Shown here in pieces: positions 28,801 to 37,800 of a stretch of DNA of 64,000 bases. Within the stretch, counting starts at the first letter, position 1, and each line of letters starts with the position of its first letter. The DNA is taken from contig NC_087077.1 of assembly GCF_026151205.1 (NCBI RefSeq), positions 7,927,983 through 7,991,982 on the forward strand, read 5' to 3'. The position numbers and the translations under genes are program-made. The stretch is from Bolinopsis microptera (Eukaryota > Ctenophora > Tentaculata > Lobata > Bolinopsidae). Below the pieces are notes generated by a model that was not told the origin of the DNA, did not search any database, and saw only the letters and a program-made list of their open reading frames with translations.

Positions 28801-31800
28801 ACCACTAAGATGCTAAGAGCCATTTTAGCCGATTCATTCAGGTATATCAGGCCGAAGAGTGTGAGGTAGAGCCATTGGAATGTTCCAAAACTGCATTCCT
28901 CTATATTAAGGTCGTTTATTGCTGTCTCTCCTTAATGTGGTAGCGGGTCCTAATAAAGTGGTTAACAGTTACACATGTGCTGAGTAGTCTGGTTTTTATC
29001 TCCTCTCTGTTGGGTGGTCACACAATGTGATGTCCCTTACCTAATCTCAACATAGGAAACTGGTAGAAAGGTGGTTAGTAAGATATAGAAACATTGTGTA
29101 ATGTATAACGATTATACATTGTATAATGTATAAACACGGGGATGTGAAGGTAGACTAAATGACTCATTACTCATTAGTCAATGTACAATTGATGTACATA
29201 TAATGTACTTTACGTGAATAGGCTTTCTAGAAACCCCATTTCATATGTGTTGAATATAATATATTCGACACCATATTATTATTGCTAATGCAATATGAAA
29301 CTGTGAATATATAACAATCAAATGAACTATCAATTCCGAAATATATTTTGCCAATTTGCAGGGCAATACACTTACTTTAAGTTGATTGTCTGAAATCTCG
29401 TTACCATGGTGACCATTAGGTACTGGTAACGTCCTCCCCTCTTCCATAATGGAAGCAGGAGAAGCCGTAAGATATTGGTGATAATATCTAAATATAGATG
29501 TCAACCAGAAAAGGTCATAAGCAAACAGACGAGTCTTCTACACGTAAACTGTGCAAGTGAATTCTGGTTGTTGGTTTACACAGTGGTGTGTAAAATGTAG
29601 GTGTGACATGATACACAGATACATGATAGAAACTGCCCATATTTATCGACGTGAAAATACAATATTATACATTATAATACGGATATATTTAGAGATATGC
29701 GGATATTGTGTCTGTAAACGCGTGCCTAATTTTCCGTCCAGGTATTTTAAAGTCCAGGTATTTCCGAGTCGATTTTCTAATTCGTTTGGGAGGGAATGAA
29801 ACTGAAGTGATGTTACTCATGGTAGTAGAACTTCCGATTACAACATTTTCATATCTTCAATAAAGATGTCCGATTAAGTATAGAAAACTGAATAGCATTA
29901 GGGTAGTTATCCTTGCCAATATTTCGAAGAGCAGTCTGGGTGCAGCATTTCTGTGCAGCATACTTACATCTTAATTGGGAACTTTTTGTAATGTTTTAAT
30001 CAATCGGAAGTTCTGATAAAAATTAAACCTTGAAAAGCGATATGTATCGGTACCTGAACACAGTGGCGTAACGAAAGGCCCTGCTGACCCCGCTGTGCAG
30101 GGGGCGCCGTCTTAGGGGGGCGCCAAATCGTCGTTTGAATGTGGGACAATTTCGAAAACTTAACTAAAGTACTAGCAAAACTGCGCGTTTTGCTCTAGAT
30201 ACACACTTTTTTAGAGATTTTACCGGCGTATTCTTTAAAATCACCTAATTTGTTCTATTTTAGGGAGGGGGCGCCAACAGGGGGGCGCTTTTTTCGGCAG
30301 GGGGCGCCAACAGGCAACGTTACGCCACTGCCTGAACAGTCACAAAAATTTGCCTATGCAATGCAACCTCCAGGAATTCAGAAGAAACTCGTATTTTGGG
30401 GCCGATTAGTCTAATTTTATCTACCTGAGCTGTGACGTTTACTTCGTCATAGTGCTTCCTTGCGAAACGTGGTGCACAATTACGGAATGTGCCACGCGCG
30501 GTAACAGTAATGACGTAGCGCGCGGCGACTCGGCATAAATTTGTAGGCCTCTTAGCGCAAATAAGGTGCGCGCGCGTCATTAATTCGCGCGCCTTATATT
30601 ATCGTGTCTACATACATATTACATAATATCTCCCCATCCTATCGTCACGTTATTTTGCATGTCATAGTAGAGGGCTGTTTAATTCCTGTTTAATTCCTGT
30701 ATATAGTTATCTCACTATCTCAGCCGGTCAGCCTCTGAACATCGTAGACTTTTGGGTGGGCTCAGATTAACTGCAATGGCCACATATATGTACAATTTAT
30801 GAAGCGACATGTGCCAAAAAATGCCCAGTTTTCCGTTCTTACGATGCGAAATTCGTTCAATCTCACATCGCAACCGAAGATCTAACACAGATGACAGATA
30901 CACCTACATTATTAGATAGGAACTGTGTGGCCGGAGATAACCTATGAAAATCACAAACATCATTATTTCAGCTGGCAAATCTAAAACTTCAGTTATTGTA
31001 CTGCGGCCATTTTAAGTGCTGTGTATCCGAATCGTCTGTTTAAGTTGTGAAGCACGGGTAACGAATCTAATCTATTGAGTTACTATCTGTGGTGATTGCA
31101 AAGAAATTCATTGATAAAAGATTGAACAAGTAGTTTCATGAGGTTGAAGAAATAATAAACGATTTTCAAAAAAAACAATTATGATTAGGAAGATAAAAAA
31201 CAAGTGAAATCAGAAATGAGAATGATAAAAACAAACAATTAATTAAGTTATGAGATATTTATCCTTTCCAAATAAACATCTTGCCATTATTTGGTGAAAT
31301 TATAAATTTTCAAGTTAAATTGAAACCATAAACTCATGGCTACCGATTACATCAAACAACACAATTCAACAGAAATATTTAGCATACTTTCTGATAAAAA
31401 ATAATCTAAAACTTTAAAAAAAACAATAGGACACATCTGGTGTCAATATTAAGTCTAGTTCATTTAACTTTCTTCATGTTTATCATGTTTCGCGGCACCG
31501 AAACCCCAGCTGAATGCATTTTCCACAAAGTTCCTAGGATGGTATATGTCAATAAATCTGTATTACTCTGTAACGAGTACAGGTAGAGCGGCAGAGTCGA
31601 TTATTGATGAGACAAAACATCGTTTAAAAGGTGGTTCAAACCCTCTTTTGCTATCCAACCATTTATCCTCTCACCTGTGGATGCTCTTCTTTTGGCTTAT
31701 GAGTATCTGACTTCTCCAATGGCACCTGTTTATACGGATAGACAGTAATGTGGCACCTTTTACACTCCTGTAGGAATACTTGCGTTGAGCTTTACCCTTC

Positions 31801-34800: not shown

Positions 34801-37800
34801 ATTCTAGAACCTTCTATGACATTCAGAATTTATTTTGCTGTATTATAAGCTGGTTTCCTGCGAACTTGAACTACTGAGTAATGAGTAGCCGTGTCAGTTA
34901 TTCTGCCTGCTAACCGACTGGCTATATTAAATATCTTTTGCCTTGTTGAATTATTAATTATTATATATATATATTATATTATTTTCCCTTTGCGATCTCG
35001 CTTGGTTTCATACAATTATAAACTAAACGTATTCGGTATTGCAGTTAAAATTCTTTGAATATCATATATCAATTGACCTTATGAAATTGTTACATAAAAA
35101 TTCTGAAATTAAAAATCGAATAGATAAAAATCATGCAGACAAAAATCTGAAATATTAAAATTATCTGAAAAAATTAAATTTTGAAGAAACAGTCCTCTGG
35201 AAAAAATACCAAAACGGCATCCACAGTTTATATCTCATAAGTATATATTATGTATCAAACTTCAATCTGTTAATGTCAATGTCATGACTAAAATCGACGG
35301 TGAAATGTCCACACCTCAACTACTAACTAAGCTTTACCTCAAATTGTTCATTGGCATACGTAGGGTGCAAATTTGCACTTATCATTTATGATAAGTATCA
35401 ATATCAGCTACATTTTTCTGCCACACTGAAATTGTCCACAAGGATAGCCCAATCTGCGGCATTTTCCGCACCTCTTTCTACCCCAGTTCTCCTGAAAATT
35501 GGGATTTTATAATTTATTAATCACCTAATATACATAGAGGGGCAGAAAATCGACAGCGATTTTGTGCCGCTCTAGAATTTTACCGATTTAGTCATATCAA
35601 TGGCAATATTTGGAATGTTAGTTCGTTAAATCGTAGTGTGGTGAATAAAGACAATGATTTATTAGCGTTTAGTTAAACTGGCGGTTTTTCTTATCGCTAA
35701 TTATCAATATTACCTCAGGCCTTTTTGGGCTAACATCTCTATTGACCTCGTTGTTTTCCACCTTTCCCAGCGAGTTCTGCTCGTAAGGGTACACTGTTAT
35801 CTTGCACTTTTTGCAAGTCTAAAATATAAAGTAAAAGCGAATAAAGGATACATTATACTTTTCTAACGGTCGCAAGATTTTTTATAATCATTCAAAAACT
35901 ATTGTCAAATTACCAATCAACCCCCCCCCCCCCCCCCCCCCACCCCTTGACACAAAATAAAGTGAACAAACCTGGCCTTGGTTTGCCCACGAGTGGCCAC
36001 TTTGCCATGTCTGCTTACACTTTGAACATTGAAAAAGACCAAAAACCCTGTTAGGTCCCTGATACGGCGTCTTTTTGAAATTCTGTGATGAAATAGGAAA
36101 TCTTGTATCATTGGAGACTTTTTAGTTGTAACTTGTAAAAAAGGAGGCCTAAACATACTCAACGTCAAAATAACAAACCGAGTACATCACTATGAGATAG
36201 TTAGAAGATTCAGGATTTATTATATTTGGCAATCCAGGCTGCTCACTTTTGAAGAGGAAGACATCGCAGATCAAACACGGAATGAACCAAGTATATATAT
36301 TATGTATAACGAAACAAAAAGTGAGGGAATAATATGCGTACGATGATCTGTTGAAATATAAACCTAAACACCCAAGTCTTCTGACATTATTAATCCGATA
36401 AGCTTAATATTAATGTAAAATGTTGTTTCTCATATTTCCTCAAGTTATCAAAACAGCCGGTTGGCTGGCAGGAAAGCTGGCGGCAACAGCTTTAATTTAT
36501 GTCCTTCTAGAACGTTCTAGTAGAACATAACAAAAGAGCTCAACTCATTGTCCCAAAGTGCTCATTATGTAATTATCTAGCTGTTCTGTAGTAGAATGAA
36601 CATTGAACATTCATATTTTAGTCTCCTCTTGTGTTATGGGAAATATACTATACTTATGTATAAGCTAATGTCGGTGTATAACAAAGATAGCAGTGACGCT
36701 CTAGTACACTGCTAAGACGGGTATTATGTACGCTTTTTATTGAATTGTAACGTCCTTCGCATGAGAAGTGTCTTAGGTAATGAAAATTGTAAAATTTAGC
36801 ATATTATGCAATGCATAGATAAATAAATCATTATCTGCAGTACATAATGTTCAATATCTGCCATGAAGTTCAATATCGTCTCCGAAGATAAAAAATAACC
36901 ATGAACGTAACTATATTCATCACTCTCAGGGAATCCTGTCGTTTCTAACCCTAACTCTACTCCTTAAAACTCCTTATTTTCAGGGTATCCTGTCGTTTCT
37001 GTCAGCCCCGCTGGTTGGAGCTTTGTCAGATGTATGGGGGAGGAAGTCATGGCTGCTAGTCACCGTTTTTTGTACCTGTCTTCCCATTCCTCTTCTTAAA
37101 ATCAGCGCTTGGTGAGTTACATAATGTTACATGGTGTTACATAATGTTACATGATATATACTAACCGCTCTCTGGAGACACTTCTATGCAAGTGTGCTTA
37201 TTTATAGCTTTATAGTCTTCAGAAAATGTTCAAACTTCAATTCTCATCCACTACAGATTTCGGTTCCCCCACCTTTATGGAGAATATTCGTCACGACGGT
37301 TTCCCATGTGCCGACATAAAAATTAAGTTAAATTGTACGTACGGTTCGGATTTCAATTTTTCAAAATGACCTTACACACAAACTCCCCGTCTCCAAAACA
37401 CCCAATTGTTTAAAATCCCTAATTTCCAGGTGGTATTTTGCTGTTTTCTCTCTGTCAGGAGTGTTCTCTGTCACCTTCTCCGTGGTGTTTGCTTACGTGG
37501 CGGATATTACTGATGACAATGACAGAACGGCTGCGTATGGCATGGTAAGATAACGAGTTACCTTAGTTCCCAAAAATTTGTGTGCCATTATATTGAGCAC
37601 AATTTATTTGAGCCCGAAAAATTTGGGCAGAAAATTTGAACTCATTTGGGCGACCGAAAATTTGGGCACAAATTCTTCGAAAAATGAACAATTTTCCACT
37701 AAAATTTCAGTTAGATATTTGCCTTAGTTCATTATTATTCCTTATTATTCCAGTCATTTTGCTTTCAATTTTAAGCATGTAGGTGGTAGTCTGAGTTGTT

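Follow-up and report, generated by a model that had tools for sequence, protein, structure and literature searches.

A tandem trio of predicted ZCCHC24-derived 3CxxC zinc-ribbon mini-genes in the ctenophore Bolinopsis microptera

Described 3CxxC proteins and the structure of the trio

Several described protein families are relevant to the small zinc genes reported here. Members of the ZAR1 family have a long N-terminal region ahead of the zinc domain, are expressed in oocytes and bind maternal RNA. The RTP family belongs to the same broad 3CxxC zinc class as our mini-proteins and carries a C-terminal transmembrane segment. UPF0515, which we take to be the SHFL family, is modeled over 271 positions. 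The human ZCCHC24 protein stabilises targets whose 3'UTRs it binds at UGUWHWWA, and the accessible text of that report does not specify which domain is responsible for RNA binding (PMC11624195). One paper reports, in its accessible part, over-representation of the zf-3CxxC domain in a tapeworm, Sparganum proliferum (PMC8166898), and expansion of the domain is therefore known elsewhere.

The window we analyzed, a stretch of 64,000 nucleotides, has three predicted minus-strand genes between 31483 and 36264, with copy 3 beginning at 36264 and copy 1 finishing at 31483. Every exon proposed in an initial annotation could be placed as it had been drawn there. Each copy has four exons separated by phase-0 introns with GT-AG borders, and all exon lengths are divisible by three. 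The genes were described as about 2 kb apart; the ATG-to-ATG distances are somewhat shorter, at 1792 and 1710 bases. The predicted products of 96–105 residues agree with the claimed length of roughly 100 and extend scarcely beyond one 3CxxC zinc domain, with 16–27 residues preceding a conserved FG.

In copy 3, a tiny ATG exon like those of the other mini-genes (MSSSSK, with the start codon; 36247–36264) is followed by exon 2 with the first CxxC and a tryptophan (35972–36082), exon 3 with the second CxxC and YPY (35714–35818), and exon 4 with CGKC...C and the stop (35408–35491). Copy 2 has the same plan, with a first exon (MSDS; 34461–34472) that aligns with a copy on C1 (see below), followed by exons 2 (34128–34235), 3 (33853–33957) and 4 with the stop (33483–33548). 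The first exon of copy 1 (MPNS; 32751–32762; ATGCCAAATTCG followed by gtaagt) had been called weak, but it resembles the ATG exons of 4–6 codons in five other mini-genes and follows a plan common to five paralogues. The remaining exons of copy 1 are exon 2, with a lysine-rich start (32070–32210), exon 3 (31675–31767), and exon 4 with the stop (31483–31533). Exon 2 of each copy was found by genome profile search and exon-core scan; exons 3 and 4 are supported by frame and splice borders together with the exon-core scan.

For that scan, three exon-core patterns were run in six frames across the window and gave nine matches, corresponding to exons 2, 3 and 4 of each copy, all on the minus strand and in the correct order, against none in 20 first-order Markov windows. 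Because the patterns were composed after the trio was known, the comparison of nine with zero gauges chance and not discovery. Conservation of the coding sequence while synonymous sites are saturated argues that the predicted trio consists of genes and not of chance exons. The trio illustrates how members of a known RNA-binding family go unnoticed in ORF calling when their exons are short.

Family and descent

Pfam supported the proposed 3CxxC domain in all three copies through Zn_ribbon_3CxxC_2 (PF17180), with scores of 59.3, 63.3 and 62.4 bits (cut-off 27; E-values 3.9e-16, 2.1e-17 and 4.2e-17). A genome-wide PF17180 search also picked up exon 2 of each copy (45.2, 40.8 and 39.2 bits); two of 14 control genomes gave a match in this search, none of them above cut-off. 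The ZCCHC24_C profile (PF23490, cut-off 27) came near threshold for copies 2 and 1 (26.8 and 25.3 bits) and gave no Pfam match for copy 3. No CCHC zinc knuckle was matched by Pfam in any of the three proteins.

A ZCCHC24 orthologue lies on C11 of the same genome, with matches to zf-CCHC_2 (39.5 bits), 3CxxC_2 (89.6 bits) and ZCCHC24_C (70.1 bits). Its introns fall at CPQ/KGEG, MGQ/ECKK and HPQ/ELCEK, and all three of these phase-0 positions are shared with the trio. Copy 1 is identical to this orthologue at 51/85 residues, above its identity to either trio neighbour (44/83 and 41/84), and copies 2 and 3 resemble the orthologue (45/86 and 43/87) no more closely than they resemble each other (48/92). 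The trio resembles ZCCHC24 in its PF17180 ribbon, in the intron positions of this genome's orthologue and, for two copies, in a C-terminal box near threshold, but differs in having neither the knuckle nor the N-terminal part. Since the knuckle is absent here and present in the C11 orthologue, the predicted proteins are ZCCHC24 minus its knuckle, that is, ZCCHC24-derived but not ZCCHC24 by architecture. They belong to a known family. Judged from the saturation of synonymous sites between members, the amplification of the trio is not recent. ZCCHC24 would have spawned a mini-protein set in an apparently early-branching animal lineage.

The initial annotation had instead read the trio as a ZAR1 domain cut down to a mini-protein. 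Its description of stand-alone 3CxxC mini-proteins in tandem with a four-exon, phase-0 plan stands, but ZAR1 as their source, in our reading, does not. The general 3CxxC layout is indeed shared with ZAR1/ZAR1L, copy 2 reaches 24.6 bits with PF13695 (cut-off 23), and ZAR1 is the top PDB hit for copy 1, although weak (chain 9jko_A, E 0.056). However, PF13695 falls below cut-off for copies 3 and 1 (21.6 and 20.8 bits), and PF17180 outscores it by 38–42 bits in each copy. The trio introns coincide with those of ZCCHC24 (ZAR1 introns were not in the comparison), copy 1 is nearest to the ZCCHC24 orthologue among the genes of the window and C11, and copy 3, the other copy searched against PDB, had no match to ZAR1 at E <= 1. 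Unlike ZAR1/ZAR1L, the trio proteins have no long N-terminal region. The SPKRP of copy 3, offered as an echo of ZAR1, lies where the other intact members have EHPQ or SHPQ and where copy 3 carries an insertion. On profile scores, intron positions and sequence identity we rejected ZAR1 descent, a reading to which we give next to no weight. Searches of the genome with PF13695 and with a ZAR1 query found no ZAR1-like match; neither had a positive control, PF13695 having matched in 0 of 14 control genomes.

Further copies, selection and relatives elsewhere

The initial annotation had recommended looking for more copies in the genome, and this search yielded three further mini copies, one on C1 and two on C4. 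The C1 copy has lost two introns and passes the cut-off of 27 for ZCCHC24_C with 34.8 bits. An AlphaFold2 model of this copy, for which the input alignment consisted only of exon-2 pieces and the C4 copies, was too poor to use (mean pLDDT 55.2, pTM 0.37, residues 51–92 below 50). Weak genome matches were also seen at C10:10762049 (E 0.58), C7:15615904 (E 0.67), C11:20703509 (E 0.75) and C1:4746420 (E 8.8).

Comparison of copy 2 with the C1 copy (NG86) gave dN 0.180 and dS 1.445, a ratio of 0.125. The other NG86 ratios were 1.299 between the two C4 copies and 0.609 and 0.427 between copy 1 and each of them, dS being saturated or undefined in 17 of the 21 pairs. YN00 returned values for three of 21 pairs: copy 1 with the C1 copy (0.252), C4a (1.293) and C4b (0.970). 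Between intact copies, there is purifying selection in the pairs where it was measurable. The C4 pair, which has lost the third CxxC pair and has a dN of 0.113 against a dS of 0.087, is probably decaying. This pair fits what would be expected if the trio too were decaying duplicates without function, but in the trio and the C1 copy the cysteine pairs, splice sites and promoter element are all retained and the frames are open. Synonymous sites are saturated within the trio, and dS is 1.445 when copy 2 is compared with the C1 copy. We therefore consider decay of the trio highly improbable.

Searches beyond this genome returned no confirmed relative among viral contigs, where four stretches matched a pattern. 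In prokaryote genomes, 22 pattern matches came down to two loci, both from Bacteroidota, which match over 20–22 residues and translate alike. We judged these to be chance matches; one (L046) lies within a 269-residue ORF that looks by eye like a bacterial sugar transferase. Among the matches listed from the open-licence literature, titles and abstract openings mentioned no mini-genes of this type, and PF17180, zf-3CxxC_2 and PF23490 went unmentioned in that literature. Its titles and abstract openings on ctenophores and zygote arrest concerned cleavage timing only, with no such mini-genes. Sequence databases may well contain many stand-alone 3CxxC proteins.

Upstream element and proposed function

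All four intact mini-genes have, on the gene strand, a composite element consisting of a 12-base-period double TGNCAG-N6-TGNCAGCCAANCG. The element is exact in copy 1 (32914–32938, minus strand; C6:7960896-7960920), where it starts 176 bases before the ATG, and in the C1 copy. Copies 2 and 3 have it with one mismatch each, both on the minus strand, at 34584–34608 (start 136 bases before the ATG) and 36458–36482 (start 218 bases before the ATG). Copy 2 has a further one-mismatch match whose start lies 208 bases before the ATG. In the C4 pair, the gene strand shows no complete element within 350 bases. This element and the micro-exon with the ATG set the trio apart from ZCCHC24, the promoter of the orthologue not having been located.

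Our preferred reading, to which we assign a probability of about 0.55, is that the trio comprises mini-genes descended from ZCCHC24 that have a new promoter and encode putative small mRNA regulators, possibly in the germline. In this descent the 5' exons bearing the CCHC zinc knuckle would have been lost and a new promoter with a first exon of 4–6 codons gained. Of ZCCHC24, the products would retain the 3CxxC zinc ribbon together with most of the C-terminal box and nothing more. This zinc domain may fold around its paired cysteines and bind RNA or an RNA-regulating partner, and the mini-proteins could therefore affect mRNA stability or translation, as free-standing RNA binders or as competitors of full-length ZCCHC24. 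If the lost knuckle is the RNA binder, however, the mini-proteins may be without RNA binding.

The narrower proposal that they are competitive inhibitors, which take the partners or sites of full-length ZCCHC24 through the zinc domain, is tentative and on balance doubtful. The zinc domain is up to 51/85 identical to the orthologue and the knuckle part is absent, both as expected of a competitor, but the strong divergence among the copies (44/83, 41/84 and 48/92 identical) goes beyond the needs of simple titration.

The composite element occurs at 114 sites in the genome against none in a reversed control, and many of these sites lie inside LTR-like repeats (two LTR-like repeat pairs were checked). 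When combined with a TATAAA pattern it gave eight sites, all of LTR type by eye; in the C1 copy a TATA lies 12 bases past the 14-base motif, closer than this pattern permitted. Retroelements need germ-cell activity to be inherited. Because the element is also in the LTRs of seemingly young retroelements, we suspect, more weakly than the rest of our preferred reading, that the trio might be expressed in the germline. Against this, some genes near the element have no clear connection to the germline. A more specific version, in which a germline promoter code common to the knuckle-less mini-genes and to young-retroelement LTRs co-activates both in the same cells, with the mini-proteins perhaps acting on maternal or retroelement RNA, is speculative, and we think it rather improbable. 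If real, such a code, used by retroelements as well as host genes, would offer a way into ctenophore germline transcription. A loop-anchor motif has been reported from Mnemiopsis in the accessible text of PMC12221973.

Other ORFs that have the element upstream on their own strand match MMR_HSR1 (and AIG1 below its cut-off), RAI1, SNTX-type MACPF and 3'-5' exonuclease families. These neighbours would suit a role of the mini-proteins as antiviral or immune effectors like vertebrate 3CxxC or related zinc proteins (RTP4, SHFL), as would the weak UPF0515 matches over the zinc ribbon of all three copies, with E-values from 3.4e-5 (copy 1, the best) to 0.002. All of these UPF0515 matches are under the curated cut-off, however. 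INTS2 and a MYND protein are also among the neighbours of the element, and the two measurable intact pairs (0.125 by NG86, 0.252 by YN00) give no indication of positive selection. We consider an immune role unlikely. The trio proteins are far shorter than UPF0515 and, unlike the RTP family, have no C-terminal membrane segment apparent by eye. Within 1200 bases past the stops of copies 1, 2 and 3, UGUWHWWA occurs 2, 0 and 0 times, counts that are not informative, and AATAAA or ATTAAA occurs 2, 0 and 2 times.

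Three truncated ZCCHC24 paralogues

We found three genes of four exons each on the minus strand of the window between 31483 and 36264. Copy 3 (exons 36264-36247, 36082-35972, 35818-35714, and 35491-35408) encodes 105 residues, copy 2 (34472-34461, 34235-34128, 33957-33853, and 33548-33483) encodes 96, and copy 1 (32762-32751, 32210-32070, 31767-31675, and 31533-31483) encodes 98. Each exon length is divisible by three, and all introns are in phase 0 and bounded by GT-AG. The trio of minus-strand genes for proteins of about 100 residues described in the initial annotation was thus confirmed, and its four-exon, phase-0 plan was found in all three copies, including copy 1. 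Exon-core patterns derived from the trio genes themselves gave nine matches in a six-frame scan of the window, three per gene and in the expected order, with none in the window outside the trio and none in 20 Markov-1 windows of equal size. In a genome-wide search with PF17180, exon 2 of each copy scored above the cut-off. The observation of the trio is real and was well read, and we are nearly certain of the identity of the genes. Intron 1 of copy 1 contains 49 consecutive C (32676-32724), which read as G on the gene strand; stretches of this kind also appear in intron 2 of copy 3 and at the loci of two further mini genes on C4.

The Pfam profiles supported the 3CxxC zinc domain, with PF17180 (Zn_ribbon_3CxxC_2) scores of 59.3, 63.3, and 62.4 bits for copies 3, 2, and 1, respectively, far above the cut-off of 27. 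PF23490 (ZCCHC24_C) scored slightly under its cut-off of 27 for copy 2 (26.8 bits) and copy 1 (25.3 bits), and scores for the other 3CxxC model, PF13695, straddled its cut-off of 23 (copy 3, 21.6 bits; copy 2, 24.6; copy 1, 20.8). Copies 1 and 3 were also compared with the PDB. The sole match of copy 1 at E <= 1 was ZAR1 (9jko_A, E 0.056), and the five matches of copy 3 at that threshold (best 0.28) did not include ZAR1. On these Pfam scores and PDB matches we rejected the proposed attribution to ZAR1; the domain is as claimed, but the branch is ZCCHC24. The trio members are truncated ZCCHC24 paralogues, in which the zinc ribbon is kept but the knuckle is absent. Their zinc exons are identical to ZCCHC24 at 51/85 (copy 1), 45/86 (copy 2), and 43/87 (copy 3) positions.

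Relatives, selection, and proposed role

Genome-wide searches with PF17180, PF23490, and two of the mini-proteins as queries identified one full relative on C11 and three additional mini copies, one on C1 and a pair on C4. The C11 exons read GLGDRI...CHICFDKGHYITDCPQ, a 23-letter start followed by more, ECKKCQITVYPHKQ...EHPQ, and ELCEKC.... The C11 protein scored above the cut-off for three domains (zf-CCHC_2, 39.5 bits; PF17180, 89.6; PF23490, 70.1) and is therefore a ZCCHC24 orthologue; its ribbon region has three introns at the positions of those of the trio and in identical phase.

The C1 copy (C1:1788845-1789415, within the locus C1:1787664-1790792) retains the ATG micro-exon, intron 1, and the promoter block. 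Its introns 2 and 3 were lost precisely, which suggests a half-processed gene that arose by gene conversion or by retroposition through a partly spliced RNA. The C4 copies (C4a and C4b; C4:8734446-8739249), alike at 69 of 83 residues, retain intron 1, encode cysteine pairs one and two without an intervening intron, and have lost the third CxxC. This pair is probably decaying or changing function.

Zinc-exon identity was 44/83, 41/84, and 48/92 among trio members, and copy 2 matched the C1 copy at 68/92 positions. Purifying selection was evident for copy 2 against the C1 copy (NG86 ratio 0.125, dN 0.180, dS 1.445) and for copy 1 against the C1 copy (YN00 ratio 0.252), and C4a against C4b appeared relaxed (ratio 1.3, with dN of 0.113 slightly above dS of 0.087). 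Because NG86 dS was saturated in all three within-trio pairs, among 17 of 21 pairs overall, the trio consists of old paralogues and did not arise in a recent burst of tandem duplication.

In humans, ZCCHC24 recognises UGUWHWWA in 3'UTRs and stabilises the mRNAs that it targets (PMC11624195). The most likely role of the mini-proteins would be as RNA-regulating zinc proteins, acting alone or against ZCCHC24. We hold this RNA role to be an even bet and regard germline expression as tentative; to the explanation as a whole, in which the germline step counts as a weak one, we assign a probability of roughly 0.55.

A composite promoter element

Seven occurrences of TGCCAGCCAA with at most one mismatch were found in the window (shuffles averaged 3.11, and 0 of 100 reached seven). 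Five of these fell within the 900 bases made up of the 300 upstream of each trio ATG (binomial P 1.1e-8, assuming uniform placement of matches and with the genes non-independent through paralogy). Genome-wide, TGCCAGCCAAACGG had 32 sites against one in the reversed control. By reading, most but not all of 22 site neighbourhoods held a composite with a 12-base period, and the composite pattern TGNCAGNNNNNNTGNCAGCCAANCG had 114 sites against none in the reversed control.

The element is exact or one mismatch off in four of the six mini genes. On the minus strand it is exact in copy 1 (32914-32938, 176 bases before the ATG) and has one mismatch in copy 2 (34584-34608, 136 bases before, with a second one-mismatch match at 208) and copy 3 (36458-36482, 218 bases before); the C1 copy has it exactly on the gene strand, 136 bases before the ATG. 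The best gene-strand matches within 350 bases of C4a and C4b were four and seven mismatches off, respectively. The C1 copy has a further exact site upstream, in inverted orientation, and another site separates the two C4 genes, on the strand opposite to them. The promoters of copy 2 and the C1 copy can still be aligned in blocks that surround the element and the ATG, despite a dS of 1.445. The element looks like a double candidate binding site with a 12-base period. This shared promoter element is more surprising than the mini genes and merits separate study.

By reading, 76 of the 100 sites listed (of 114) are of one type, TGACAG(T/C)A...TGCCAGCCAACCG. Sites of this type frequently form same-strand pairs with a spacing of about 3 or 7.7 kb. 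We compared two of these pairs, and both lie in direct repeats longer than 500 bases, 547/547 identical and 7.7 kb apart at C2:16509742-16518353, and 543/544 identical and 3.1 kb apart at C1:4676441-4680449; each pair of repeats apparently bounds a young LTR-type element, the first of a long form and the second of a short one. Other sites are close to ORFs that resemble host genes. We scanned one ORF from each of 10 of 22 loci (the largest, omitting a low-complexity one in L025) and 2 of 10 loci of a second set (there not the largest; L037 also has a longer ORF, and L040 has two of low complexity that were skipped). Six of the 12 were downstream on the site's strand with Pfam E <= 0.01 (MMR_HSR1 GTPase, INTS2, RAI1, DNA_pol_A_exo1, SNTX-type MACPF, and MYND), five were on the opposite strand (SET, ketoacyl synthase/acyl transferase, Helicase_C, a reverse transcriptase slightly under the cut-off, and a sub-cut-off DUF), and one had no Pfam match. 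The 3'-5' exonuclease ORF directly follows the site at C9:10109911, and an identical site lies on the same strand 6.9 kb away at C9:10116818, so this locus may itself sit in a repeat, either as a duplicated gene or as an element carrying an exonuclease. Among the matches listed, all eight composite sites on C11 were separated from the ZCCHC24 orthologue by more than 0.7 Mb, and the closest TGCCAGCCAAACGG site was 0.38 Mb away. Judged by eye, nine unlinked loci (L014, L015, L016, L026, L028, L034, L035, L036, and L040) resemble one another over a longer promoter-like region that surrounds the element, most with a downstream TGAGCTCATTTCT-like block; this region may represent a class of promoters or a repeat dispersed through the genome.

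Surroundings of the trio

G+C content was 33-42% across 4-kb blocks of the window. Adjoining the trio on the opposite strand are MFS transporter exons (36867-37112 and 37332-37550, plus strand), with a sub-cut-off PF07690 score and weak PDB matches to MFS transporters, from a gene that we take to be MFSD14-like. For the MFS-like exon that follows (39592-39741), Pfam gave no match. A 184-residue open frame at 37840-38391 (plus strand) matched the transposase type DDE_1 (28.5 bits, cut-off 22) and may be nested in one of the MFS gene's introns.
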